Positions 30,238-54,271 of a stretch of DNA of 64,000 nucleotides are shown piece after piece. A program made the position numbers and the translations under genes. Every line of letters starts with the position of its first letter. Within the stretch, counting starts at the first letter, position 1. Source of the DNA: Alphaproteobacteria bacterium (GTDB taxonomy: Bacteria; Pseudomonadota; Alphaproteobacteria; UBA8366; GCA-2717185); contig JBBDQU010000085.1 in assembly GCA_040905865.1 (NCBI GenBank), forward strand, positions 112,295-176,294, read 5' to 3'. The notes beneath the pieces were generated by a model. That model saw only the letters and a program-made list of their open reading frames with translations, ran no database searches and was not told the origin of the DNA.

Positions 30238-32256
30238 CTACCGGGTAGCGAGGTCGGTCCGGAGGTCGCCGGCGTCGGTCAGGGGCGGTGAACAGATCAT
30301 GCCCTGGCAGACATAGGCAGCGGGCCGGCCGTCGACCATGCCCTTTCCATGGGCAGGATGGGTGGCAGGCAGGTCGGTATCCGGCGGCAGAACGGTGAGG
30401 ATGCGGTTGGGCAGGCAGACATCGGTCACGGCACGGCGCAATGTCTGCGTATCGTCGGCATCGGGCGCACCGGCAATCACGACCTGTACCGCGTTGCGCA
30501 GCAGGTCGTTGGCGTTCAGCAGGGTCGAGAGCGGAAAGACGTTGCGGTCCAGTTCGCCCGAAAAAGCGGCGATGATGCCCTGCGCGCGGTCCAGGTACGA
30601 CTTGTCGCCGGTCAGGTAGTACAGTCGGGCGAACACCGCGGTCAGCATCCCGTTGCCGGACGGCACCGCATTATCCGCGGCCGATTTGGTGCGGGCGATC
30701 AGGCCGGGCGTATCGTCCGCCGCGAGGAAGTAACCGCCGCCCGTCGTATCGGCGTAATGCCGTTCGACGATTTCGAGCCAGGCCGTCGCGGCGGCGCGAT
30801 AGGCCGGGTCACCGCGGACCTCGGACAGGGCCAGCGCTGCCCGGCACATTGCCGCGTAATCGTCCAGCGTGGCCGGGTGATTGAGTTTTCCGGCGCGCCA
30901 GGCGTGGCGCAGCCTGCCGTCGACGCTCATCCGGTCATGTACGAAGGCGAAGGCGCGGGCGCCGGCGTCGATCCAGTCCTGGCGCCCGAATGCCGCCCCC
31001 GCGTTCACCAGCGCGGCGATCATCAGGCCGTTCCAGTCCGCGAGGACCTTGTCGTCCTTGCCGGGCTGGATCCGGGCCTCGCGGATGGCTAGCAGGGTGC
31101 GCCGGCAGGAAGCCAGGATGGCTTCGATTTCGTCATTGGCCAGTTCAATATTATTCAGCCTGTTCAGTATGTTATGGCCTTCCCAGTTTCCTGCGGCGGA
31201 AACGTCGTAGTATTTCTTGAACAGTGTCGCGTCGGGGCCCAGCGCGGCATCGATTTCCGCCTCGGACCAGACGCAGAACCTGCCTTCCTCGCCTTCGCTG
31301 TCCGCGTCCAGGGAGCTGTAGAAGGCGCCGTCGGGGTCGGTCATATCGCCCAAGACCCAGTCGACTGTTTCGGCGACGCGCTGCGCGAACAGTGGATCGC
31401 GGGTTTCCTGCCACAGCAATGTCAGCAGATCGACCAGCTGCGCGTTGTCGTACAGCATTTTTTCAAAATGGGGCGCGAGCCAGCGCTCGTCGGTCGAATA
31501 ACGGGCCAGGCCCCCGCGCAAATGGTCGTAGATGCCGCCCTGGCACATCCGGACCGCCGACAGCAGCACCGCGTCCGCATAGGTTTTCTGGCCGGTGCGT
31601 TTATAGGCGCGCCAGAGTTGTTCGAGGAAGGAAGGCTGGGGGAATTTCGGGGCGCCGCCGATACCGCCATGCACAGGGTCGACTTCGCGGACCAGCCGTT
31701 CGGCGACCATGTTCATGCGGGCGGACGGGATTTCGCCGCCGGATTCCGACTGGCCCAGACGCTTCAGGCCATCAACCAGCGCGGTTGTGTTGTTCCGGAC
31801 CCGTTCGGGGTCTTCCCTGTAGACGCCGGCGATCCCCTTCAGGACATCGGTAAAGGCCGGGCGGCCGAAACGGGGTGTCGCGGGAAAGTAAGTGCCGCCC
31901 CAGAACGGTTCGCCCGCATCGTTCAGGAACATCGTCAGGGGCCAGCCGCCCTGTTCGCCGAGCATCTGGAGGGCGGCCTGATAGATCACGTCGATATCGG
32001 GCCGTTCCTCGCGGTCGACCTTGATGTTGATAAACAGCTCATTCATGACAGAAGCGATGTCGGCGTTTTCAAAACTTTCATGCGCCATCACATGGCACCA
32101 GTGGCAGGCGGCATAACCAATAGATAAGAGGATCGGTTTTCCGGTTTCCTTCGACGCGGCCAGCGCCTCCTCGCCCCATGGTCGCCAGTGGACCGGGTTA
32201 TCCTTGTGTTGCAGGAGGTACGGGCTGGTTTCCTCGGCGAGGTAATTGCGTGTCAT
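30238..32256 (-). CDS. Thioredoxin-domain protein YyaL/SPATA20 family
   Basis: A 672-residue protein. The N-terminal DsbH-like thioredoxin domain (1-160) has the CHWCHVM active-site motif and a VDREERPDID loop. A long alpha/alpha-barrel, glycosidase-like domain (about 200-620) follows, with FEKMLYDNAQL and AFYSSLDADSEGEEG as signatures. The function is not firmly established in bacteria. Its start is the first ATG and agrees with family members beginning NYLAEETSPYLLQHKDNPVHW (as segments). First gene of a four-gene minus-strand run. Confidence 0.9.
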   Translation of the reverse strand: MTRNYLAEETSPYLLQHKDNPVHWRPWGEEALAASKETGKPILLSIGYAACHWCHVMAHESFENADIASVMNELFINIKVDREERPDIDVIYQAALQMLGEQGGWPLTMFLNDAGEPFWGGTYFPATPRFGRPAFTDVLKGIAGVYREDPERVRNNTTALVDGLKRLGQSESGGEIPSARMNMVAERLVREVDPVHGGIGGAPKFPQPSFLEQLWRAYKRTGQKTYADAVLLSAVRMCQGGIYDHLRGGLARYSTDERWLAPHFEKMLYDNAQLVDLLTLLWQETRDPLFAQRVAETVDWVLGDMTDPDGAFYSSLDADSEGEEGRFCVWSEAEIDAALGPDATLFKKYYDVSAAGNWEGHNILNRLNNIELANDEIEAILASCRRTLLAIREARIQPGKDDKVLADWNGLMIAALVNAGAAFGRQDWIDAGARAFAFVHDRMSVDGRLRHAWRAGKLNHPATLDDYAAMCRAALALSEVRGDPAYRAAATAWLEIVERHYADTTGGGYFLAADDTPGLIARTKSAADNAVPSGNGMLTAVFARLYYLTGDKSYLDRAQGIIAAFSGELDRNVFPLSTLLNANDLLRNAVQVVIAGAPDADDTQTLRRAVTDVCLPNRILTVLPPDTDLPATHPAHGKGMVDGRPAAYVCQGMICSPPLTDAGDLRTDLATR

Positions 32257-44457: not shown

Positions 44458-45543
44458 TCAACCGGGCGAAACCTCCGCCTGCTTCATCTGCCGGTACCGG
44501 TCGAGCGTCTCCAGCATGTTCTGTGGAATCAGGGCCGGCGGCACGATCTGCCTGTCCTGCGTCGCTACCGAGGTTTCCCGATTCTCGAACGGATTGTCCT
44601 CTTTTTCATCCGGCTTTTTATCGATCCGGTCCGGCGGCGCCGTTTGCGCCGACAGCGCGGTCAGTTTGTCGGCCAGCCGTGAACTGATATTCGGAACAGG
44701 CGCCTGCCGTCCCAGGGGCGTCTGCACCATGCCGCCAAGGCCCGCGATCGGTCCGGCGGCCGGTACGGCGGCGCGGGCTTGCAGAATAGCGCCGACCGGG
44801 TCTTCCGTCTGGTTCTGCAACTGCGTGAAGGGCAGCGCCCCCATGCCGCCGAACGGTTTGCGGCTTGCGGCAGGCGTGATTGCAGCGGCCTGCGGTGGCG
44901 CGGTTTCCGGCCGCCCGGCGTTGTGTGCGGCGGGTGCGGTTCGGGCCAGCGCCAGCGCCAGCGTTGTATCCGGCGGTAAAGGCGACGCGGGCAGCGCCGG
45001 ACCCGGATTCGCCGCCGTCAGCGCGCTGACGGTTGCGCCGGCCGGCGTAACCGCGCCGGCGGCAGCGACGGCCACGGACTCATCGGCGGTACCGGAACCG
45101 GTCAGCGCCGCAAGAACCGTTTCCCCGATATCCTCGCCGGTCGACGCTTCCACGGCCGCGTTGACGATGGCGATGCCGGCGCCGATGGGGCCGCCGAACA
45201 GTGCGCCGCCGGCAATACGGGCGCCGGGCGCAATCTCATCCCCGGTAAGCGCGCGGTAAATCGTCGAGACGATCGGGATATGCTGGAGCGGATTAATGAT
45301 GTCGAGAAAATCGCCGAAGGTCAGGCCGTCTTCGCCGAAGAAGCTGGAATCTTCCGGATTCGCCTCGGGCAGCGATATGATGCCTTCGATGCCGAGGTCT
45401 TCCGGGCGGTGATGATAGGCGATCACATCGGGTACGGCGGACCCGTCCGCGTAGAATTGCTGCGGCCTGCCATTGCTGGCCAGCGGCGGTTTCGCGGCGG
45501 GAATGGACGCCGGGCTGGCGCCCGAGATGACGGCATCGACCAT
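44458..45543 (-). CDS. Conserved hypothetical Ala/Pro-rich protein
   Basis: A 361-residue protein I do not recognise by function. A moderately hydrophobic, glycine/alanine-rich segment (about 77-150) reads INPLQHIPIVSTIYRALTGDE, then ARIAGGALFGGPIGAGIAIV and VNAAVEASTGEDIGETVLAALTG (as segments). This is a motif I associate with uncharacterised proteins of this bacterial group. The rest is low-complexity Ala/Pro/Thr, probably disordered, with a charged Lys/Asp/Glu patch near the end (DKKPDEKEDNPFENRE). No signal peptide. ATG 45543 has GGAGGAG in front. It is transcribed alone on the minus strand. Confidence 0.8.
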   Translation of the reverse strand: MVDAVISGASPASIPAAKPPLASNGRPQQFYADGSAVPDVIAYHHRPEDLGIEGIISLPEANPEDSSFFGEDGLTFGDFLDIINPLQHIPIVSTIYRALTGDEIAPGARIAGGALFGGPIGAGIAIVNAAVEASTGEDIGETVLAALTGSGTADESVAVAAAGAVTPAGATVSALTAANPGPALPASPLPPDTTLALALARTAPAAHNAGRPETAPPQAAAITPAASRKPFGGMGALPFTQLQNQTEDPVGAILQARAAVPAAGPIAGLGGMVQTPLGRQAPVPNISSRLADKLTALSAQTAPPDRIDKKPDEKEDNPFENRETSVATQDRQIVPPALIPQNMLETLDRYRQMKQAEVSPG

Positions 45544-45708
45544 GGAAACTCCTCCACCCGGAATCGTGTGCAAGCACGATGCCATGGCGGGAATGCCCGG
45601 ATACCGGGGTTTTCAGAAGCTTTCGCGCCGCCCGCCGCCGCCCGCTGGCAAATATTGCCCGCTTCGCCGGAGAGTTCTGCCGGTCAGGCGCGAAGGGGCG
45701 CCGCCTTT

Positions 45709-45781
45709 CCATAAGGTCAATCAGAGTCACATGGTTTGCGGATCGCCGGTGCCGGTTCCAGCAATCCACGGTCTGATCTAA
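45709..45781 (-). repeat. Palindromic intergenic repeat, copy C
   Basis: Third, most diverged copy. On the minus strand it reads TTAGATCAGACCG at the ribA end. The central hairpin has decayed (ACCGGCACCGGCGAT) and the far side reads AACCATGTGACTCTGATTG. The ribA stop codon TAG is again the element's own first bases, as in copy A. The remaining part of the 45544-45777 gap shows nothing I can assign. Confidence 0.75.
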
Positions 45782-46890
45782 AACAGGTGGCCGCTTCGCG
45801 CCGCCTTGGTCTGGAGGTAATGCTCGTTATGGCCGTTTGCCGGAAACGTATGGGTCACGCGGTCGATGACCTCGATGCCATGTTCCGCCAGCGCCGACAC
45901 CTTGGCGGGATTGTTGGTCATCAGCCGGATGCGGCTGAAGCCGAGCCGGTGCAGCATGCCCGCCGCCGGCCCGTAGACCCGTTCATCGGCGCCGAAGCCC
46001 AGTTCCTCGTTCGCGTCGATGGTATCGAACCCGCTGTCCTGCAGGCGGTAGGCGCGCAGCTTGTTGGCCAGTCCGATACCGCGGCCTTCCTGCGCCAGGT
46101 ACAGCAGCAGCCCGCCGCCATCCGCGGCAATGGCATCCACCGCGCCGCGCAGCTGGTCGCCGCAGTCGCAGCGCAGGCTGCCCAGAAGGTCCCCGGTAAA
46201 GCATTCCGAATGCAGCCGCGTCAGGACCGGCTCCGCAGGATCCGGATTGCCGATGACGATGGCGACGTGGGTCTTGCCGCCATCGGCCGGCCGGAACGCG
46301 ATGAACCTGGCGTTTTCGGCGCCTTCCAGGGGAATATCGGCGGCAATTTCGGACAGTGACAGCTCGGCGGCGGCATAGCGGTATCCCTCGACATCCTCGG
46401 CGCCGGCGGTCAGGAAATCATGCTGCGCCGCAAAAGCCGCCGCGTCACCGGTAATCGCCGTTGTCAGCGCCGTGGGCAGCAGCCGCGCAAATTTCATCAG
46501 ATCGACGGCGGATTCCTGCAGGGGCTGCCCGAACGACGAAATCGTGACGACCGGTCGCGTGCTGTTCAGCGTCGCGCCGGCGATTTCGGTCGTGCTGGCG
46601 ATTGTCAGGCCGCCGGCCGGCATGATGGAAACAGCCCTGGCCTCCATCGGGTCGAGGCCGAGCGCGATTGCGCGCAGGGCGGTCGTCACGCAGGAAACCG
46701 CGTTTCCGCTCAGCCCGCGCAACATGGCGGGATCGATGCCGAACTCCGCCGCCGCGACGAGCAGCGCGAGCTTGCCGCCGCGCAGGACGACGGGCCGGCC
46801 CCGCCGCAGGTCGCCGATCACGCGGCTGATGGCGTTTACGCCGGGAAGGGAAACGGGTGCGGAAAAGATTGATTCGGTATTACGCGGCAT
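45778..46890 (-). CDS. ribA: GTP cyclohydrolase II with degenerate N-terminal RibB-like domain
   Basis: A 370-residue protein. The C-terminal half (about 180-370) is a complete GTP cyclohydrolase II: zinc ligands in LHSECFTGDLLGSLRCDCGDQL (as segments), catalytic LYLAQEGRGIGLANKLRAY, and LMTNNPAKVSALAEHGIEV. It opens the imidazole ring of GTP, releasing formate and pyrophosphate. The N-terminal half begins AISRVIGDLRRGRPVVLRGG, where true DHBP synthases have the acidic DDEDREnEGD loop; that loop is missing, so RibB activity is unlikely. It lies 5 bases after the CDP-alcohol phosphatidyltransferase gene and so belongs to the pterin-like cluster. Confidence 0.9.
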   Translation of the reverse strand: MPRNTESIFSAPVSLPGVNAISRVIGDLRRGRPVVLRGGKLALLVAAAEFGIDPAMLRGLSGNAVSCVTTALRAIALGLDPMEARAVSIMPAGGLTIASTTEIAGATLNSTRPVVTISSFGQPLQESAVDLMKFARLLPTALTTAITGDAAAFAAQHDFLTAGAEDVEGYRYAAAELSLSEIAADIPLEGAENARFIAFRPADGGKTHVAIVIGNPDPAEPVLTRLHSECFTGDLLGSLRCDCGDQLRGAVDAIAADGGGLLLYLAQEGRGIGLANKLRAYRLQDSGFDTIDANEELGFGADERVYGPAAGMLHRLGFSRIRLMTNNPAKVSALAEHGIEVIDRVTHTFPANGHNEHYLQTKAARSGHLF

Positions 46891-46895
46891 CTGAT

Positions 46896-47687
46896 TTAAC
46901 GGTTACCTTTGTATTGCTGTTCGGCGGTCCGACCGGCTTCGGGATCGGGCCCGGCAGCCAACCATAATGTGTCCCGCCCAAAGGACAAGCACAGCATTGT
47001 GAGGGCGATACCGCCTATAACGGTCGCGGCGTTGCTTGTCACCACGGGAAGCAGGCATATCACCAGCGCGCCGACCTGAATCGCGCAAACGGCGCGCCGG
47101 AAGGCGCTATAGGGCAGCGGGCGGGTCAGTCTTGGCCAGATCCAGCCCGCCGCGACGAATATATAGCGCAATGCGCCGACCGCGAGAATCCACAGGCCCG
47201 TTTTATCGGAGAGCCCGATCAGAAGGCTTAACACCAGAATCAGCGCTGCGTCGGTTTCCATGTCGAACCGGGCGCCGAAGGTCGTGCACGCGGCGTAGCG
47301 GCGCGCCAGATACCCGTCAATTCCGTCCAGCGCCAGGGCGACCCCCGCCAGCGCCGCGATAACCCACCAGTTTACGAGGGTCGGGGTGTCGGTTCCGGCC
47401 AGAGCTCCGGCGACGATAACGGTCAGGGCCACGCGGATCCAGGTCACGCGGTTGGCGTGGCCGAACCGCAGCATCTGGCCCGCCCGCGCGGCGCAGAACA
47501 TCAGCGCGATTGCCGCCAGCCCGTACATCGCCAGTGTCAGTATAAAGGTATCCCAGGTCGGCAGTACGGCGGCGCCCAGCAGAATGACGGGCAGCGCCGT
47601 AAGGGCGACCATCAGGCGGGCATCGTTGGCGATGGCGGAAACGCGTAGCCAGCGGTTTCCGGAAGCCGTCAGTCGGTCACGATACAT
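46896..47687 (-). CDS. CDP-alcohol phosphatidyltransferase family protein
   Basis: A 263-residue integral membrane protein with about six to seven transmembrane segments. The CDP-alcohol transferase signature is complete: DGIDGYLARRYAACTTFGAR then FDMETD, giving DGxxDGxxAR-x(8)-G-x(3)-D-x(3)-D. It transfers a phospho-alcohol from a CDP-activated donor in the membrane. Acceptor unknown. ATG 47687 is preferred; an in-frame GTG at 47702 would add 5 residues. It is divergent from the RibD-like gene and 5 bases upstream of ribA. Confidence 0.87.
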   Translation of the reverse strand: MYRDRLTASGNRWLRVSAIANDARLMVALTALPVILLGAAVLPTWDTFILTLAMYGLAAIALMFCAARAGQMLRFGHANRVTWIRVALTVIVAGALAGTDTPTLVNWWVIAALAGVALALDGIDGYLARRYAACTTFGARFDMETDAALILVLSLLIGLSDKTGLWILAVGALRYIFVAAGWIWPRLTRPLPYSAFRRAVCAIQVGALVICLLPVVTSNAATVIGGIALTMLCLSFGRDTLWLAAGPDPEAGRTAEQQYKGNR

Positions 47688-47880
47688 TGTTGCGGTCCAC
47701 AATAGACGTTCAAGTCCCGTCGTACTTCATATATGGTCGCCTACAGTAAAACGGTAGCGAAACTGTAAAGAGAAATCAGAAACACCGTTTTGGGCACTGG
47801 TTTTCCTTGCGATTTGGGGGTCGCGCCGGAGTTGTTGGAAGGATACGAAAATTACCGAAAACGAAGCCTGGGGCGTCATT

Positions 47881-48741
47881 TTGGCCTTCGTAAGGCGGTC
47901 CCGTCGCGCGGTACCCTGCGCCGCCGGCAAGACATGGACCGTAAATCAGACATCTGAGTCGCTGACCGTTTATTCCGGCGCGAACCCCGCAACCGCAAAG
48001 GAACTGGCCGCCGTCGACCGGCACGGCACGGTGACGATCGACGGCGGCCTGCCGGAACCCGTTGCCATGCTGTTCCGGCTGTACCTGCCATTGTGCCTGC
48101 CGCAGGGCTCCTTCACGGTCGGCCATCTGGGGCAAAGCCTCGACGGGCGCATCGCGGCTGAAAACGGCGCGTCTCATTATGTCACCGGCTCGGCGGATAT
48201 CCTGCACAACCACCGCATGCGCGCCCTGTTCGACGCGATCATCGTCGGCGCGGGAACAGCGATGCATGACGACCCCCAACTGACGGTGCGGGAATGCGAG
48301 GGGGAAAATCCCGTCCGTGTCGTGATCGATACGGAACGGCGCCTGCCGGTGGCGCTGGGCCTTTTCCAGGATGAGGCCACGCCGACATTGCTGCTTTGCG
48401 CGCCGGACCGGGTGAATGGAAGCGCACGCCACGGCGCGGCGGAAATCGTTCCCGTCGCCCGGGATTCGGAAAGCCTCTCACCACACGCGATTCGCGCCAC
48501 GCTGGCCGGGCGCGGGCTGCAACGGCTGTATATCGAAGGCGGCGGCGTGACCGTGTCGCGGTTTCTCAAGGCGGAATGCCTCGACCGGTTGCAGGTGACG
48601 GTTTCGCCGCTCATCATCGGATCGGGCCGGCCCGCCATCGTGCTGCCGGAAGTGACCAGCCTGGCGGAGGGGCTGCGGCCCGTGACGCGCCGTTTCGACC
48701 TTGGCGAGGATGTCATGTTCGAATGCCGTTTTCATGAATGA
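47881..48741 (+). CDS. RibD-like reductase (RibG C-terminal/DHFR-like domain)
   Basis: A protein of about 286 residues. The domain from about residue 78 begins [19 protein letters not shown], continues [18 protein letters not shown] and later [18 protein letters not shown], the reductase domain of RibD. The cytidine-deaminase half (HAE, PCxxC) is absent, replaced by about 75 unassigned residues. It should reduce a ribosylamino-pyrimidine-like substrate with NADPH. The start is uncertain: TTG 47881 is used here, but a strong GGAAGGA at 47837-47843 points to ATT 47851, in frame, giving [13 protein letters not shown]. The frame stays open to 47770 without any ATG or GTG. It overlaps the next gene by 8 bases. 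Confidence 0.85.
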
Positions 48742-49687
48742 GCGCGCCTTCTGGGTCGCGGCTCCGGGCCGGGGCGAAATCCGAACGGCGCCCGGTCGCG
48801 ACGCCGGACCGGGCGAAGTCGCGGTTCGGGCGCTGGCCAGCGGCATCAGCCGGGGCACGGAGGCGCTGGTGTTTCAGGGCCGGGTGCCGGAAAGTCAGTA
48901 CAGTGTCATGCGCTGCCCGTTTCAGGCCGGCGATTTTCCGGGGCCGGTGAAATACGGCTATGCGTCGGTCGGGGCGCTGGAACGCGACGGCACGCGCGTA
49001 TTCTGCCTGCATCCGCATCAGGACCGCTATATCGTGCCGGCGGAAATGGTGGTCCCGGTGCCCGATGACGTGCCGGACGGCCGCGCCGTGCTTGCCGCCA
49101 ATATGGAAACGGCGGTCAACGCGATGTGGGATGCGGGGCCGCGCATCGGCGACCGAATCGCGGTGGTCGGCGGCGGTGTCGTCGGCTGTTTCGTCGCCGC
49201 CCTGTCGGCGCGCCTGCCGGGCGTGTCGGTCGAACTGGTCGATATCAACCCGGCGCGGGCCGGTATCGCGGCGAAACTCGGCGTCGGTTTCGCCGCCCCC
49301 GCCACGGCGGCCGGCGACCGCGACATCGTGGTGCACGCCAGCGGCGCGCCGGCCGGGCTGACAACGGCGCTGGGCCTGGCGGGGTTCGAGGCCACGGTGC
49401 TGGAAATGAGCTGGTATGGCGACCGGATGGTGCCGGCGCCATTGGGCGAAGCGTTTCATTCGCGTCGGCTGACCCTGCGGTCCAGCCAGGTCGGACATGT
49501 CGCGACCAGCCGGCGCGCGCGCCGTACGCATCGCGACCGTATGGCGCTCGGGCTGGAACTGCTGCGCGATCCGGCCTTCGACTGTCTGCTCAGCGAGACC
49601 TCGGCTTTCGCGGATCTGCCGCAAACCATGGCGCGGCTCGCGGAAAATCCCGGCGACACGCTCTGCCACGTCGTAACATACCCGTAA
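48734..49687 (+). CDS. BchC-like medium-chain dehydrogenase
   Basis: A 317-residue MDR-family protein. The N-terminal half has [21 protein letters not shown] where alcohol dehydrogenases have their catalytic zinc Cys, so the zinc site seems absent. The Rossmann motif is [16 protein letters not shown], with the acidic end of the second strand [12 protein letters not shown] predicting NAD preference. It resembles the dehydrogenases annotated as zinc-binding alcohol dehydrogenase or BchC-like that accompany 6-carboxytetrahydropterin synthase genes. The ATG overlaps the RibD-like stop by 8 bases and the PTPS gene follows after 25 bases. Confidence 0.85.
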
Positions 49688-49712
49688 TATTCAAAAACGA
49701 CAGGAATTCAAT

Positions 49713-50120
49713 ATGTTCAGCATTACCGTCCGCGACAGTGTCATGATCGCCCACTCCCTGAAAGGCGCGGTCTTCGGCCCCGCCCAGCGACTGCACGGGG
49801 CAACATTCGTTATTGAGGTGACCCTGCGCCGCGCGAAACTGGATGAAAACGGGATTGTCGCGGATATCGGCCGCGCAACGACGCTGCTCGGCGAAATACT
49901 GGAAACGTACGCGTACAGAAATCTGGACGATCTGCCTGAATTCGCGGGCCGGAATTCCACCACCGAGGTCCTGGCGAAGGAAATCCATGACCGCTATGCC
50001 GGCGGCATCCGCGCCGGCCGGCTGGATGGCGACGCGCATGAAACAATCGTTTCGCTGGGCGTGGTCCTGCGGGAAAATCCCGATGCCTGGGCCGGATACG
50101 ACGCACCGCTGCAGGGCTGA
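49713..50120 (+). CDS. 6-pyruvoyl-tetrahydropterin synthase/QueD family protein with altered active site
   Basis: A 135-residue T-fold protein. The family segments IAHSL (His14), LHGATFVIEV, NSTTEVLAKEIHDRY and VVLRENPDAWAGY are recognisable. Compared with QueD (KCGRLHGHSF), the catalytic Cys is Ala24 and the last zinc His is Ala30; the DHH motif that carries the catalytic His is also absent. The conserved substrate-binding Glu in TTEVLA and the one in LRENP remain. It therefore probably does not perform the classic PTPS or QueD reaction. It sits between the BchC-like dehydrogenase and the glycosyltransferase, 1 base before the latter's start. Confidence 0.88.
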   Translation: MFSITVRDSVMIAHSLKGAVFGPAQRLHGATFVIEVTLRRAKLDENGIVADIGRATTLLGEILETYAYRNLDDLPEFAGRNSTTEVLAKEIHDRYAGGIRAGRLDGDAHETIVSLGVVLRENPDAWAGYDAPLQG

Positions 50121-50121
50121 T

Positions 50122-51189
50122 ATGGATGGCGCATCGCTGATCTTCGTTGTTCCCGGTTCGATCGAGCAACGCACCGGCGGCACCCTGTACGACCGGCGCA
50201 TCATCGACGGTATGCGGGCAATCGGCCAGCCGGTCACGCTGGTGGAGCTTCCCGGCCGCTTTCCGGTATGCGACCCGGTTGCGAAATCAGCAGCCGACTC
50301 CGTTCTCCACGCGGCGCCCGACGGCACACGGATAGTCATCGACGGACTCGCCCTGCCAGGCTTCGCGGAATCCCTGTCGGATCACCGGGACCGGCTGCGG
50401 CTGACGGCGCTGATCCATCACCCGCTGGCGGCGGAATCCGGCCTCGACGACGGTACCCGTGACGCCCTTTTCGCGCTGGAACGCGCCATGCTGCGCGACG
50501 TCGGCGGCATTATCACGACCAGCCCCGCGACGGCCCGGATGCTGGCCGGTTACGATGTCGCGGCGGACCGGCTCGCCACCGTCCTGCCGGGCACCGACCC
50601 GGCCCCGCGGGCAACGGGCTCGAACGGCGGCCCGGTGCGGCTGCTCTGCGTCGCTACCCTGATCGCCCGGAAAGGCCATATACGGTTGATTTCCGCCCTT
50701 GCGGACTGCGCCGGACTGGACTGGCGGCTCGATTGCCTCGGCGCGGCGGACCGCGACCCGGCGGTCACGGCGGCCATTCGCACCGAAATCGCGGCACGGA
50801 GTTTCGCCGACCGGGTCGTGCTGCATGGCGAAGCGGACGCGGCGGCGTTGGCGGCGGCCTATGACGCGGCGGATATTTTCGTGCTGGCCTCCGCGCTCGA
50901 AGGCTACGGCATGGCCTTTGCCGAAGCGCTGGCGCATGGCCTGCCGGTGATCGCCAGTGGCGACGGCGCGGTACGTGACACCGTGCCGCCAATGGCCGGG
51001 ATTATCGTGCCGGTCGGCGATCACGACGCCCTCGTCGCGGCGCTGACGCGGATGATCGCGGATCCGGCGTTGCGCGCGGAAAAGGCCGCGGGCGCGCGGG
51101 CGGCCGGGTCGCGGTTGCCCGACTGGCCGGCGGCGGCGCGGCAGTTCACTCAGGCGCTCGGACTCGTCCCGGCGCATAATACGCCATGA
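50122..51189 (+). CDS. Glycosyltransferase family 4 protein
   Basis: A 355-residue GT-B fold enzyme. The C-terminal nucleotide-sugar half has LLCVATLIARKGHIRLISAL, the pair of carboxylates in FVLASALEGYGMAFAEALAHGLPVIAS (as segments; E-x7-E motif) and GIIVPVGDHDALVAAL. The N-terminal half is the acceptor domain. No transmembrane helix, so cytosolic. The sugar and acceptor are unknown; the context suggests it glycosylates the product of the preceding pterin-like genes. Its stop overlaps the next ATG by 4 bases. Confidence 0.88.
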   Translation: MDGASLIFVVPGSIEQRTGGTLYDRRIIDGMRAIGQPVTLVELPGRFPVCDPVAKSAADSVLHAAPDGTRIVIDGLALPGFAESLSDHRDRLRLTALIHHPLAAESGLDDGTRDALFALERAMLRDVGGIITTSPATARMLAGYDVAADRLATVLPGTDPAPRATGSNGGPVRLLCVATLIARKGHIRLISALADCAGLDWRLDCLGAADRDPAVTAAIRTEIAARSFADRVVLHGEADAAALAAAYDAADIFVLASALEGYGMAFAEALAHGLPVIASGDGAVRDTVPPMAGIIVPVGDHDALVAALTRMIADPALRAEKAAGARAAGSRLPDWPAAARQFTQALGLVPAHNTP

Positions 51190-51953
51190 CCGAAGGATTC
51201 GATGCTGACTGGCTGGCGCTGCGCGAACCCGCGGATATCGCCGCCCGGTCCGCCGCGCTGGCCGATGCGTTCCTCGATGGCCTGCCGCCCCGGCCCCGGA
51301 TCATGGATCTGGGGGCGGGCACGGGATCGAACGCCCGGTACCTGAATACCCGCGCCGAAAAGCGCGGCATGCGGATCGACTGGGTGCTTGTCGACGGGGA
51401 CCCAACCCTGCTGGACCGGGCCGCGCTGCCGGTGTTCGACCGCCGGGTGCTCGATTTCGCCGCCGATCCGGCCACGATCGATCTTGCGGGCATCGACGCC
51501 GTCAGCGCCTCGGCATTGTTCGATCTGGTATCCGAAGACTGGTTCTCCCGCTTTGTGGCGCTGCTGGGGTCCCGCCCGCTGCTGGCGGCGCTGACGGCGA
51601 GCGACGGGCATTGCTGGGCGCCGGCCGATCCGGACGACCCGGCGGTGGAACACCGGTTTGCCGCCGATATGCGACGCGACAAGGGATTCGGACCGGCCAT
51701 GGGGCTGGCGGCGCCGGCCGCCATGGCGACCCGCGTGGCCAGCGCCGGATTTGCCGTACGTCAGGCCGATACGCCCTGGCGGCTGGGGCCCGATTACCCG
51801 GCGCTCGCGGCGGCGATGATCGACGGGATCGCGGCGGCGGTCACCGGTTACGACGGTGCGTCCGGCTGGCGGTCGCGGCGGCATGCGGCGCTGGACAAGG
51901 GAATTCTGCGCCTCACCGTCGGTCATCGGGACCTGCTGGCGATGCCGCAATAA
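51186..51953 (+). CDS. Class I SAM-dependent methyltransferase
   Basis: A 255-residue protein. SAM-binding motif I is IMDLGAGTGSNARYLN (about 39-54), with the acidic end of strand 2 in VLVDGDPTLLDR. No other domain. The target is unknown; the location as the last gene of the RibD-dehydrogenase-PTPS-glycosyltransferase run suggests methylation of the cluster's small molecule. Coupled to the glycosyltransferase by a 4-base overlap. Confidence 0.85.
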   Translation: MTEGFDADWLALREPADIAARSAALADAFLDGLPPRPRIMDLGAGTGSNARYLNTRAEKRGMRIDWVLVDGDPTLLDRAALPVFDRRVLDFAADPATIDLAGIDAVSASALFDLVSEDWFSRFVALLGSRPLLAALTASDGHCWAPADPDDPAVEHRFAADMRRDKGFGPAMGLAAPAAMATRVASAGFAVRQADTPWRLGPDYPALAAAMIDGIAAAVTGYDGASGWRSRRHAALDKGILRLTVGHRDLLAMPQ

Positions 51954-52078: not shown

Positions 52079-52783
52079 ATGACTATCGGGGGTACCGTGG
52101 CCAGCAAGAAAATCCTCATCGTGGATGACGACGCCGTATTGTGTGAATCGCTGTGCGAACAGCTGCAGCTGCATGAGGAGTTCGAGACCGTCGTTTCCGG
52201 AACGGCGCGCGACGCGCTGGAAGAGGTCAAAAACCTCTATCTGGACGCGGTGCTGCTCGATGTCGGCCTGCCGGACATGGATGGTCGCGAGGCCTGCCGG
52301 CTGATGCGGCGGGCCGGTGTCAAGGTGCCGATCATCATGCTAACGGGCGCGGATACCGATGCGGATACGATCCTCGGGCTCGACGCCGGCGCCAACGACT
52401 ACATCACCAAGCCCTTCCGGCTCGGCGTGCTGCTCGCCCGTCTGCGCGCCCAGTTGCGCCAGCATGAACAGAGCGAGGACGCGGTTTTTTCAATCGGCCC
52501 CTATACGTTCCAGCCCAGCGGCAAGCTGCTGCTGGATGAGGCGTCGCAGAAGAAGGTCCGCCTGACCGAGAAGGAGACCTCGATCCTGAAATACCTGTTC
52601 CGTTCCGGCGCGAAGGCGGTCGACCGGGATACGCTGCTGGGAGAGGTCTGGGGCTATAACGCCGGTGTGACCACGCATACGCTGGAAACCCACGTCTACC
52701 GCCTGCGCCAGAAGATCGAGGCAGATCCGTCCAATGCGGTTATCCTGGTGACCGAACCCGGCGGCTACCGGCTGGTGCCTTAA
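52079..52783 (+). CDS. OmpR-family response regulator
   Basis: A 234-residue two-domain regulator. The receiver domain has ILIVDDDA, phosphorylatable Asp in LDAVLLDVGLPDMDG, Thr in MLTGAD and Lys in YITKPF. The winged-helix DNA-binding domain ends ETHVYRLRQKIE and GGYRLVP. No histidine kinase gene is adjacent. ATG 52079 or GTG 52097 (VASKKILIVDDD, with GGGGG close in front) could be the start. Its stop TAA shares its bases with the convergent next gene's stop (TTAA at 52780-52783). Confidence 0.9.
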   Translation: MTIGGTVASKKILIVDDDAVLCESLCEQLQLHEEFETVVSGTARDALEEVKNLYLDAVLLDVGLPDMDGREACRLMRRAGVKVPIIMLTGADTDADTILGLDAGANDYITKPFRLGVLLARLRAQLRQHEQSEDAVFSIGPYTFQPSGKLLLDEASQKKVRLTEKETSILKYLFRSGAKAVDRDTLLGEVWGYNAGVTTHTLETHVYRLRQKIEADPSNAVILVTEPGGYRLVP

Positions 52784-53772
52784 CCGAAGGCGGGCATCAC
52801 GTCGCGGGCGAAGCGGCGCAGCGATTCCTGATCGCGCGACGACAGCAGCACATATCCCACGCCCTGCGCCTCCATAAGCTTCAGCCGTTCGACGATGGCG
52901 TCCGGCGCGCCCAGCAAGACGCCGTCGACGGCGGCCTTGCGCAGGTCGGAATCCGAAACCATGCTGGATTTCTCCCTGCCGTCCGCCGTCTGGCCGAAGG
53001 CATTCATTACCTCCAGCTGTTTGATGCGCTGGCCAATGGCGGCTTCGCGCGCGGCGTCCGTATCCGCGATCATCAGCCCCCGCGCCACGCCGACACCCAG
53101 CGGGTCGTAGGTCCGGCCCGCCGCCGCCAGCGCGTCCCGAAAAATCCGCAAGCGTTCGAATATGACCTCCAGCGTCTGGAACTGGTCGAGGAACAGGTTG
53201 TAATGCTCGCGCGCCGCATACCGCAGCGATTCCGGCCGCCCGGCGGCGAGCCATAGCGGCGGGTGGGGCCGCTGCACGGGCTCGGGTTCCAGGACGATAT
53301 CCTCGTAATGCCAGCGCTTGCCGTGGTGGGAAAACCGGCCCTGCGTGGTCCAGGCCTTGCGGATGACGGTCATTGCCTCTTCGAACCGCTCGGTCGATTC
53401 CGCGATGGGAATGCAGAACCCGGCGAATTCGTTGTGGCGATAACCCTTGCCGACGCCGAAATCGAAGCGCCCCCGGGACAGCAGGTCCAGCGTCGCCGCC
53501 TGTTCGGCCACGAGCACCGGGTTGTGCCAGGGCAGGACAACCACGGCGGTGCCGAGCCGGATGACCGATGTCTTTGCGGCCAGATAGGACAGCAGGTTCA
53601 GCGAGGCCGACACCTGCCCCATGCCGCTGAAATGGTGTTCCACCAGAAAACTGCTGTAAAAGCCGAGATCCTCGGCTTCGATAACCGAATCGATATAGGC
53701 GTCATAGCCTTCGCGGTAACCGTCCTCAATCCCGGGCGCCGACCGCGCGCCGCCGAATATACCGAATTTCAC
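52780..53772 (-). CDS. LLM-class flavin-dependent oxidoreductase
   Basis: A 330-residue luciferase-like monooxygenase. VKFGIFGG starts the barrel, and VEHHFSGMGQVSASLNLLSYLAAKT and GTAVVVLPWHNPVLVAEQAATLDLLS (as segments) are signature regions, with GVGKGYRHNEFAG near the flavin site. It probably uses FMN or F420; the substrate is unknown. GTG 53772 is chosen because it gives the canonical N-terminus and sits 19 bases after the upstream gene. Confidence 0.88.
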   Translation of the reverse strand: MKFGIFGGARSAPGIEDGYREGYDAYIDSVIEAEDLGFYSSFLVEHHFSGMGQVSASLNLLSYLAAKTSVIRLGTAVVVLPWHNPVLVAEQAATLDLLSRGRFDFGVGKGYRHNEFAGFCIPIAESTERFEEAMTVIRKAWTTQGRFSHHGKRWHYEDIVLEPEPVQRPHPPLWLAAGRPESLRYAAREHYNLFLDQFQTLEVIFERLRIFRDALAAAGRTYDPLGVGVARGLMIADTDAAREAAIGQRIKQLEVMNAFGQTADGREKSSMVSDSDLRKAAVDGVLLGAPDAIVERLKLMEAQGVGYVLLSSRDQESLRRFARDVMPAFG

Positions 53773-53791
53773 CGACCTGTCCCCCTGCCCG

Positions 53792-54271
53792 TCATTCAAA
53801 AAACGGCACGCCATGCGCGCCGGCAATCGCCCCCAGCACCGTCACCAGGCTGACCGACAGCAGCAGCCAGTGCAGCCGCGCCAGGGATGCCAGCGTCCCT
53901 TCCGGGTCCCGGTCAAGGCGGCGGCGAAACCATTCATGCAGAAACAGCGGCTCCAGGACGAACAGCACCAGCGTAAACAGGATCCAGATGGCGGTCATGG
54001 CATGGATCCACCAGTACTGGATCTGCGCATAGCGGGACCAGGCGTCCAGCACGTGCAACATGTAGAAACCCGTCGCCCCGGCCAGCAATACCGCCAGCCG
54101 CGCCCAGGGCGCGAAGCGTTGCTCGATATCCTCGAACATCCGGCCCGCCGCATGCGGATCCTTCATGCGGCGCAGCGCCGGCAGGACCGCCAGCGTCTCC
54201 ATGGCAACGCCGCCGATCCACACCACGACCGCCAGCACATGCAGCGCCCGCGCCAGCACTTCCGAATCCAC
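53792..54271 (-). CDS. Hypothetical four-helix membrane protein
   Basis: A 159-residue protein with about four transmembrane segments (about 7-25, 48-66, 82-103 and 131-150). His10 in ARALHVLAVVVWIGGVAME, plus further His/Trp residues in WWIHAMTAIWILF, resembles the CopD/HemJ-like membrane fold, which binds haem or copper. Function not established. Start GTG 54271 gives VDSEVLARALHV; the longer frame is not supported. First of two genes on the minus strand here. Confidence 0.7.
   Translation of the reverse strand: MDSEVLARALHVLAVVVWIGGVAMETLAVLPALRRMKDPHAAGRMFEDIEQRFAPWARLAVLLAGATGFYMLHVLDAWSRYAQIQYWWIHAMTAIWILFTLVLFVLEPLFLHEWFRRRLDRDPEGTLASLARLHWLLLSVSLVTVLGAIAGAHGVPFFE

Follow-up and report, generated by a model that had tools for sequence, protein, structure and literature searches.

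A widespread gene cluster around a PTPS-IV protein, without an assigned product, probably encodes a dedicated pathway that leaves riboflavin synthesis at its early steps

The alphaproteobacterial window analyzed here (64,000 nucleotides; assembly GCA_040905865.1, contig JBBDQU010000085.1, positions 112,295 to 176,294) carries a divergent cluster of seven genes, one of which encodes a PTPS-IV protein. Our comparative analysis revealed that this cluster represents a real and widespread pathway, partly noticed before and without an assigned product. On balance, we consider it probable that the pathway branches from the first riboflavin steps and leads to a glycosylated, methylated and probably lipid-anchored diaminopyrimidine or pterin. 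The locus comprises the following features, numbered from the first letter of the window:

45778..46890, minus strand: RibA-type GTP cyclohydrolase II (GCH II), 370 amino acids (PF00925, 1e-57; E. coli GCH II 2bz0, 2e-55)
46896..47702, minus strand: CDP-alcohol phosphatidyltransferase (CDPA), membrane protein (PF01066, 4e-15); start (TTG 47702) uncertain
47703..47880, no strand: divergent intergenic region, presumed from the gene layout to be a shared promoter region
47881..48741, plus strand: RibD-like reductase without deaminase domain (PF01872, 2e-32); start (TTG 47881) uncertain
48701..49687, plus strand: BchC-like MDR oxidoreductase (TIGR01202, 3e-9); start uncertain, probably near 48734
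49713..50120, plus strand: PTPS-IV protein with an FGPAQ..HGAT motif (PF01242, 2e-21; SCO6650, 3d7j, 6e-39)
50122..51189, plus strand: GT4 glycosyltransferase, 355 amino acids (PF00534, 2e-22)
51186..51953, plus strand: class I SAM-dependent methyltransferase (MT), 255 amino acids (weak Pfam methyltransferase matches; AlphaFold model)

The genes are tightly spaced, with 5 bases between the end of RibA and CDPA, an overlap of the RibD-like and MDR genes, gaps of 25 (MDR-PTPS) and 1 (PTPS-GT4), and an overlap of 4 between GT4 and MT. This layout confirms the tight divergent arrangement described by the first-pass annotation, save that the GT4 gene starts at about 50122 (MDGASLIF...), one base past the PTPS stop, and not at the open reading frame start at 49843. 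The seven family assignments likewise stood, by Pfam or NCBIfam matches and, for the weak cases (MT and the BchC-like MDR), by profile or model. Within the 178-base divergent region, scans for sigma-70-type promoters and with Rfam gave no match.

The conservation of the cluster was assessed across 140 distinct loci around a PTPS-IV homologue, using profile searches in all six frames; because contig ends cut some of these loci, all locus counts are minimum counts. The same families surround the PTPS homologue across this set, which spans two large phyla and beyond, so that their association lies far beyond chance and the co-occurrence proposed as a check in the first-pass annotation is borne out. 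MDR was found in 138 loci, GT4 in 137-138 (one match, in L172, is actually a methyltransferase) and MT in 122. Their order, MDR-PTPS-GT4-MT, is nearly constant, with same-strand adjacency of MDR-PTPS in 133 loci, PTPS-GT4 in 132 and GT4-MT in 106. In nine loci (L080, L094, L070, L154, L158, L160, L156, L149, L157), GT4 and MT form one open frame of approximately 640-850 codons.

Around this core, CDPA occurs in 101 loci, on the strand opposite to MDR in 92 of the 101 and usually directly beside it, while the RibD-like reductase was found in 94 loci and RibA in 81. What is kept in the cluster is thus MDR-PTPS-GT4(-MT), not RibA. Clustering of all neighbors without prior choice brought out two further families, a PF03706 membrane protein (76 loci; directly after MT in 61 of 68) and a creatininase-family gene (46 loci), neither of which is present in the window's own locus. 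Two other neighbor groups from the set were discarded: a 589-amino-acid sulfatase/LTA-synthase-like group proved to be a mixed cluster of open reading frames, and a 373-amino-acid "family" was a shadow of MT.

The PTPS-IV protein was detected in 27 of 144 relatives of the window genome, in 30 of 397 sampled Pseudomonadota and in 9 of 296 genomes from the phylum of a Streptomyces locus. A one-genome-per-species collection yielded at least 579 confirmed relatives; among the matches listed, the 80 kept come from Actinomycetota, from alpha-, beta- and gammaproteobacteria, and from metagenome-assembled genomes of Gemmatimonadota and Acidobacteria. This distribution bears on whether the genes merely travel together by chance or inherited synteny, with no common pathway. 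Within the family and the order of the window genome, the outer flanking genes are indeed conserved as well, i.e., local synteny exists. However, actinomycetotal, beta- and gammaproteobacterial loci show wholly different outer flanks and order changes, and this co-occurrence across phyla, together with the GT4-MT fusion, already refutes hitchhiking, which we regard as scarcely credible.

The first two catalytic families indicate where the pathway may begin. The closest solved relative of the RibD-like reductase, 6p8c, is a reductase of 2,5-diamino-6-ribosylamino-4(3H)-pyrimidinone 5'-phosphate (DARPP), and no deaminase motif was found in 97 aligned RibD-like rows. In its C-terminal catalytic domain, the window RibA retains the three zinc Cys (CCC) and the Tyr aligned with E. 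coli Tyr105, as well as the aligned D, R and K; the zinc Cys are kept in all aligned cluster RibAs, save a mis-hit in L056. Because the reductase is closest to the 6p8c type, the deaminase motif is missing and the zinc Cys are kept, the sequences point to a ribitylamino-diaminopyrimidine that would retain its 2-amino group, as in pterins. Residues 1-180 of the window RibA form an N-terminal extension of unassigned role, which also occurs in the cluster RibAs of proteobacteria and is for the most part missing from those of actinobacteria.

For the GTP-opening step, SCO6655 of Streptomyces coelicolor, the GCH II homologue encoded together with SCO6650, reportedly stops at the formylamino form (FAPy, or AFRPP) because it has Met at the position of E. 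coli Tyr105. We therefore read the Tyr105-aligned residue in all loci, and 36 of the loci read were added once the rule was already apparent (5 Tyr-less, 14 Tyr-type). In 33 RibAs this residue is Met, His or Gln, and all 33 of their loci carry a creatininase-family gene (PF02633, 3e-59). BrbF, a creatininase-family protein of alphaproteobacteria, is a proven AFRPP (FAPy) formamidase that serves riboflavin synthesis (PMC9478397). Since every Tyr-less RibA locus encodes a member of the BrbF family, a route through DARPP is supported by logic rather than statistics: the Tyr-less RibAs form one actinobacterial clade in the tree, so that statistical covariation between the RibA switch residue and creatininase, with only one independent pair, was rejected and the pattern kept as functional logic.

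The remaining core enzymes are less readily placed. The closest NCBIfam model to the MDR is that of BchC, matched far below its cut-off, and the solved structures distantly related to it are those of polyol and alcohol dehydrogenases. The protein carries an SGxSxGTE motif, and the lack of any Cys among the residues conserved in 138 relatives suggests a zinc-independent enzyme. The PTPS-IV protein, a member of the PTPS (T-fold) family, bears FGPAQ, in which G22 and A24 are invariant and P23 and Q25 nearly so across approximately 140 loci. Compared with E. coli QueD, it lacks the catalytic Cys (MAFFT places Phe21 there, beside a gap; counting back from HGH gives Ala24) and replaces the third zinc His, the second His of HGH, with an Ala30 that is likewise invariant, while the conserved C-terminal Glu is kept. 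Because the loss of catalytic residues is itself conserved, the sequences suggest not decay but a changed reaction or a role in binding. A queuosine (QueD) role was rejected on the loss of these residues, and no other PTPS was found in the window genome.

The AGeNNT study of 2017 contains a passage that assigns the FGPAQ signature to PTPS-IV and describes a PTPS-IV neighborhood (cluster-node 62) with PF00925 and PF01872 (PMC5445326). PF00925 is read there as folate-type FolE2 (GTP cyclohydrolase I), which is a misreading; the passage names no MDR, GT4, methyltransferase, CDPA, creatininase or PF03706 partners and assigns no product.

On the membrane side, CDPA of the window carries the DG(x)2AR(x)8G(x)3D(x)3D motif together with the fold of its family, and the motif D..DG..AR...G.RFD.E.DA is kept in 30 diverse aligned relatives. 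Its model (pLDDT 89.6) is nearest to PgsA (Z 15.8), followed by the PIPS, PSS and DIPPS folds. By profile, GT4 comes closest to sucrose-phosphate synthase (SPS), MshA and PimB/PimA, whose acceptors are phosphorylated or phosphatidyl. The MT model (pLDDT 95.9) matches many class I methyltransferases, a fold without substrate information. Taken together, the sequences and models of CDPA and GT4 favor a lipid-linked product, and the membrane theme raised by the first-pass annotation is strengthened by the recurrent PF03706 protein.

A soluble glycosylated and methylated pterin or pyrimidine, comparable to cyanobacterial biopterin glycosides, would instead leave CDPA and PF03706 with another task or with a sugar carrier. 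Such a product would fit an invariant core limited to MDR-PTPS-GT4(-MT), with CDPA and PF03706 absent from many loci, and the GT4 profile also matches, weakly, the UDP-glucose:tetrahydrobiopterin glucosyltransferase 5ze7/5zer. However, the placement of CDPA opposite MDR and of PF03706 directly after MT is too regular for unrelated neighbors, and GT4 lies closer to SPS, MshA and PimB; we therefore regard a soluble product as unlikely.

Building on the gene content, gene order, fusion, conserved residues and RibA/creatininase pattern observed here, and on family knowledge for the RibA, formamidase and reductase steps, we infer the following course for the dedicated, probably lipid-directed pathway. 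RibA would open GTP to yield DARPP; in the one actinobacterial clade, it would probably halt at the formylamino form, and the clustered creatininase-family formamidase would complete the step. The deaminase-less RibD-like enzyme would then convert the ribose into a ribityl chain, leaving the 2-amino group on the ring. These early steps are well arguable, whereas the late ones are drawn from family names only. MDR and PTPS-IV might remodel the side chain or form a second ring of the pterin type, GT4 would add a sugar, and the methyltransferase, sometimes fused to GT4, would methylate. CDPA could attach a phospholipid or phospho-alcohol, and the PF03706 membrane protein, where present, could carry the product across the membrane. 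Everything after the reductase, from ring closure and the order of the late steps to the sugar, the methylation site and the lipid link, is speculative.

Several findings weigh against this pathway, the first of which concern riboflavin itself. An operon of complete appearance (nrdR-ribD-ribE-ribBA-ribH) lies on another contig (C80) of the window genome, yet the GCH II domain of its RibBA (L058 7324-8463, G000:C80), as read from the sequence, is without the zinc Cys, and a search of the genome for GCH IIb found none. No other zinc-competent PF00925 protein was found in this genome, and the cluster RibA may for these reasons also feed riboflavin. The first-pass annotation's expectation that the cluster would not hold the sole ribA and ribD thus held for RibD only: the rib operon contains a full bifunctional RibD, so the RibD-like gene is not the only one, whereas for RibA no zinc-competent counterpart was found. 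An unlinked creatininase-family gene (L178, G000:C81:20551-21279), which shares 40-48% identity with its counterparts in most proteobacterial clusters, is a candidate BrbF; the flavin GTP-opening enzyme of this genome is either the cluster RibA or another enzyme acting with a BrbF-like formamidase.

The presence of RibA and RibD families and the standing of the cluster RibA could be taken to mean that the locus is a riboflavin supply module, with an extra or main GCH II, a reductase and passenger genes. However, family searches found no deaminase, RibB, RibE or RibH among the seven genes, as the first-pass annotation had stated; the rib operon already supplies RibD; the constant core is MDR-PTPS-GT4, not RibA; and the unlinked creatininase-family gene could serve a BrbF route. 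We hold such a module to be improbable. The proposal of a secondary metabolite or membrane cofactor rather than riboflavin is partly supported, and is qualified insofar as the cluster RibA may also serve riboflavin.

Further points on the same side concern the early genes, the lipid link and the literature. RibA was not seen in 59 of the 140 loci and changes state approximately 30 times on the backbone tree, which indicates that it can be supplied from elsewhere. Among the 46 RibAs with Tyr at the Tyr105 position, 5 of the loci still carry a creatininase-family gene; and since the Tyr-less RibAs are a single clade, the creatininase pattern amounts to one evolutionary event. The lipid link depends on two membrane-protein families, and CDPA was not seen in 39 loci, some of them cut by contig ends. 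Our literature search on the cluster genes found no functional study and no assigned product or activity. The earlier statement that the gene set lacks an assigned product accordingly held, although the set is not wholly unnoticed, given the SCO6650 structure and the neighborhood passage printed in 2017 (PMC5445326).

A role in the synthesis of the deazaflavin cofactor F420 has been mentioned, as unpublished, for archaeal PTPS-IV by Zallot et al. in 2016 (PMC5041015). CofD occurs in the window genome and is found more often among relatives that carry the cluster (14 of 27, versus 24 of 117 others; Fisher p 0.003), an enrichment that stems largely from the window's own family. However, 13 of the 27 cluster-bearing genomes are without CofD, including G070 (a single contig, 100% complete) and several that are 97-100% complete. 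An F420 role is therefore not required; F420 is not the purpose of the cluster in bacteria generally, and we consider this explanation very improbable.

Should the dedicated pathway end in a glycolipid that bears a heterocycle, the known bacterial lipids or membrane cofactors would gain a class. We advance only tentatively, as a possibility we rather doubt, that it makes a new class of membrane molecules in many Proteobacteria and Actinomycetota: glycosylated, methylated phospholipids with a GTP-derived diaminopyrimidine or pterin head group. A product that turned out to be a soluble pterin glycoside would still give a function to the PTPS-IV family and to a set of genes whose current annotations are those of riboflavin or queuosine enzymes. 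The marker gene, found at no fewer than 579 places in at least two large phyla, includes a solved structure without an assigned function.

Other features of the window were recorded alongside the cluster. A Pro/Ala-rich protein of unassigned function (44458-45585) adjoins the cluster in 11 alphaproteobacterial loci. The response regulator at approximately 52 kb was rejected as a cluster member: its conserved place beside the cluster is restricted to the window's family and to part of the alphaproteobacterial relatives, and actinobacterial matches lie at other places. Near the cluster, an open reading frame at 52780-53826 gives the impression, from its sequence, of a luciferase-like flavin- or F420-dependent monooxygenase. 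At 30952-31042, ARAGORN reported a probably spurious tRNA-like gene whose anticodon has four bases (ggtg).

Known systems share parts of this architecture. Toxoflavin-type 7-azapteridine clusters likewise recruit a second GCH II, a RibD-type enzyme and a methyltransferase into a secondary pathway; to our knowledge, they contain no PTPS-IV, GT4, MDR or CDPA. The closest solved structure to the window PTPS is that of S. coelicolor SCO6650 (3D7J), and the papers on SCO6655 and SCO6650 (2006, 2008) are said to have left the physiological role of that locus open. In contrast to SCO6655, the window RibA keeps its Tyr, and no creatininase gene adjoins it. The neighborhood in the AGeNNT passage has FGPAQ, PF00925 and PF01872 in common with the cluster (PMC5445326). 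As with BrbF (PMC9478397), a creatininase-family gene accompanies the Tyr-less RibAs of related clusters; whereas BrbF serves riboflavin, the creatininase of those clusters would serve the cluster itself, and the window cluster has none. With the riboflavin pathway (RibBA, RibD, RibE, RibH), the cluster shares GTP ring opening and ribose reduction; unlike that pathway, it dispenses with RibB, the deaminase and lumazine or riboflavin synthase, and adds MDR, PTPS-IV, GT4, MT and CDPA.

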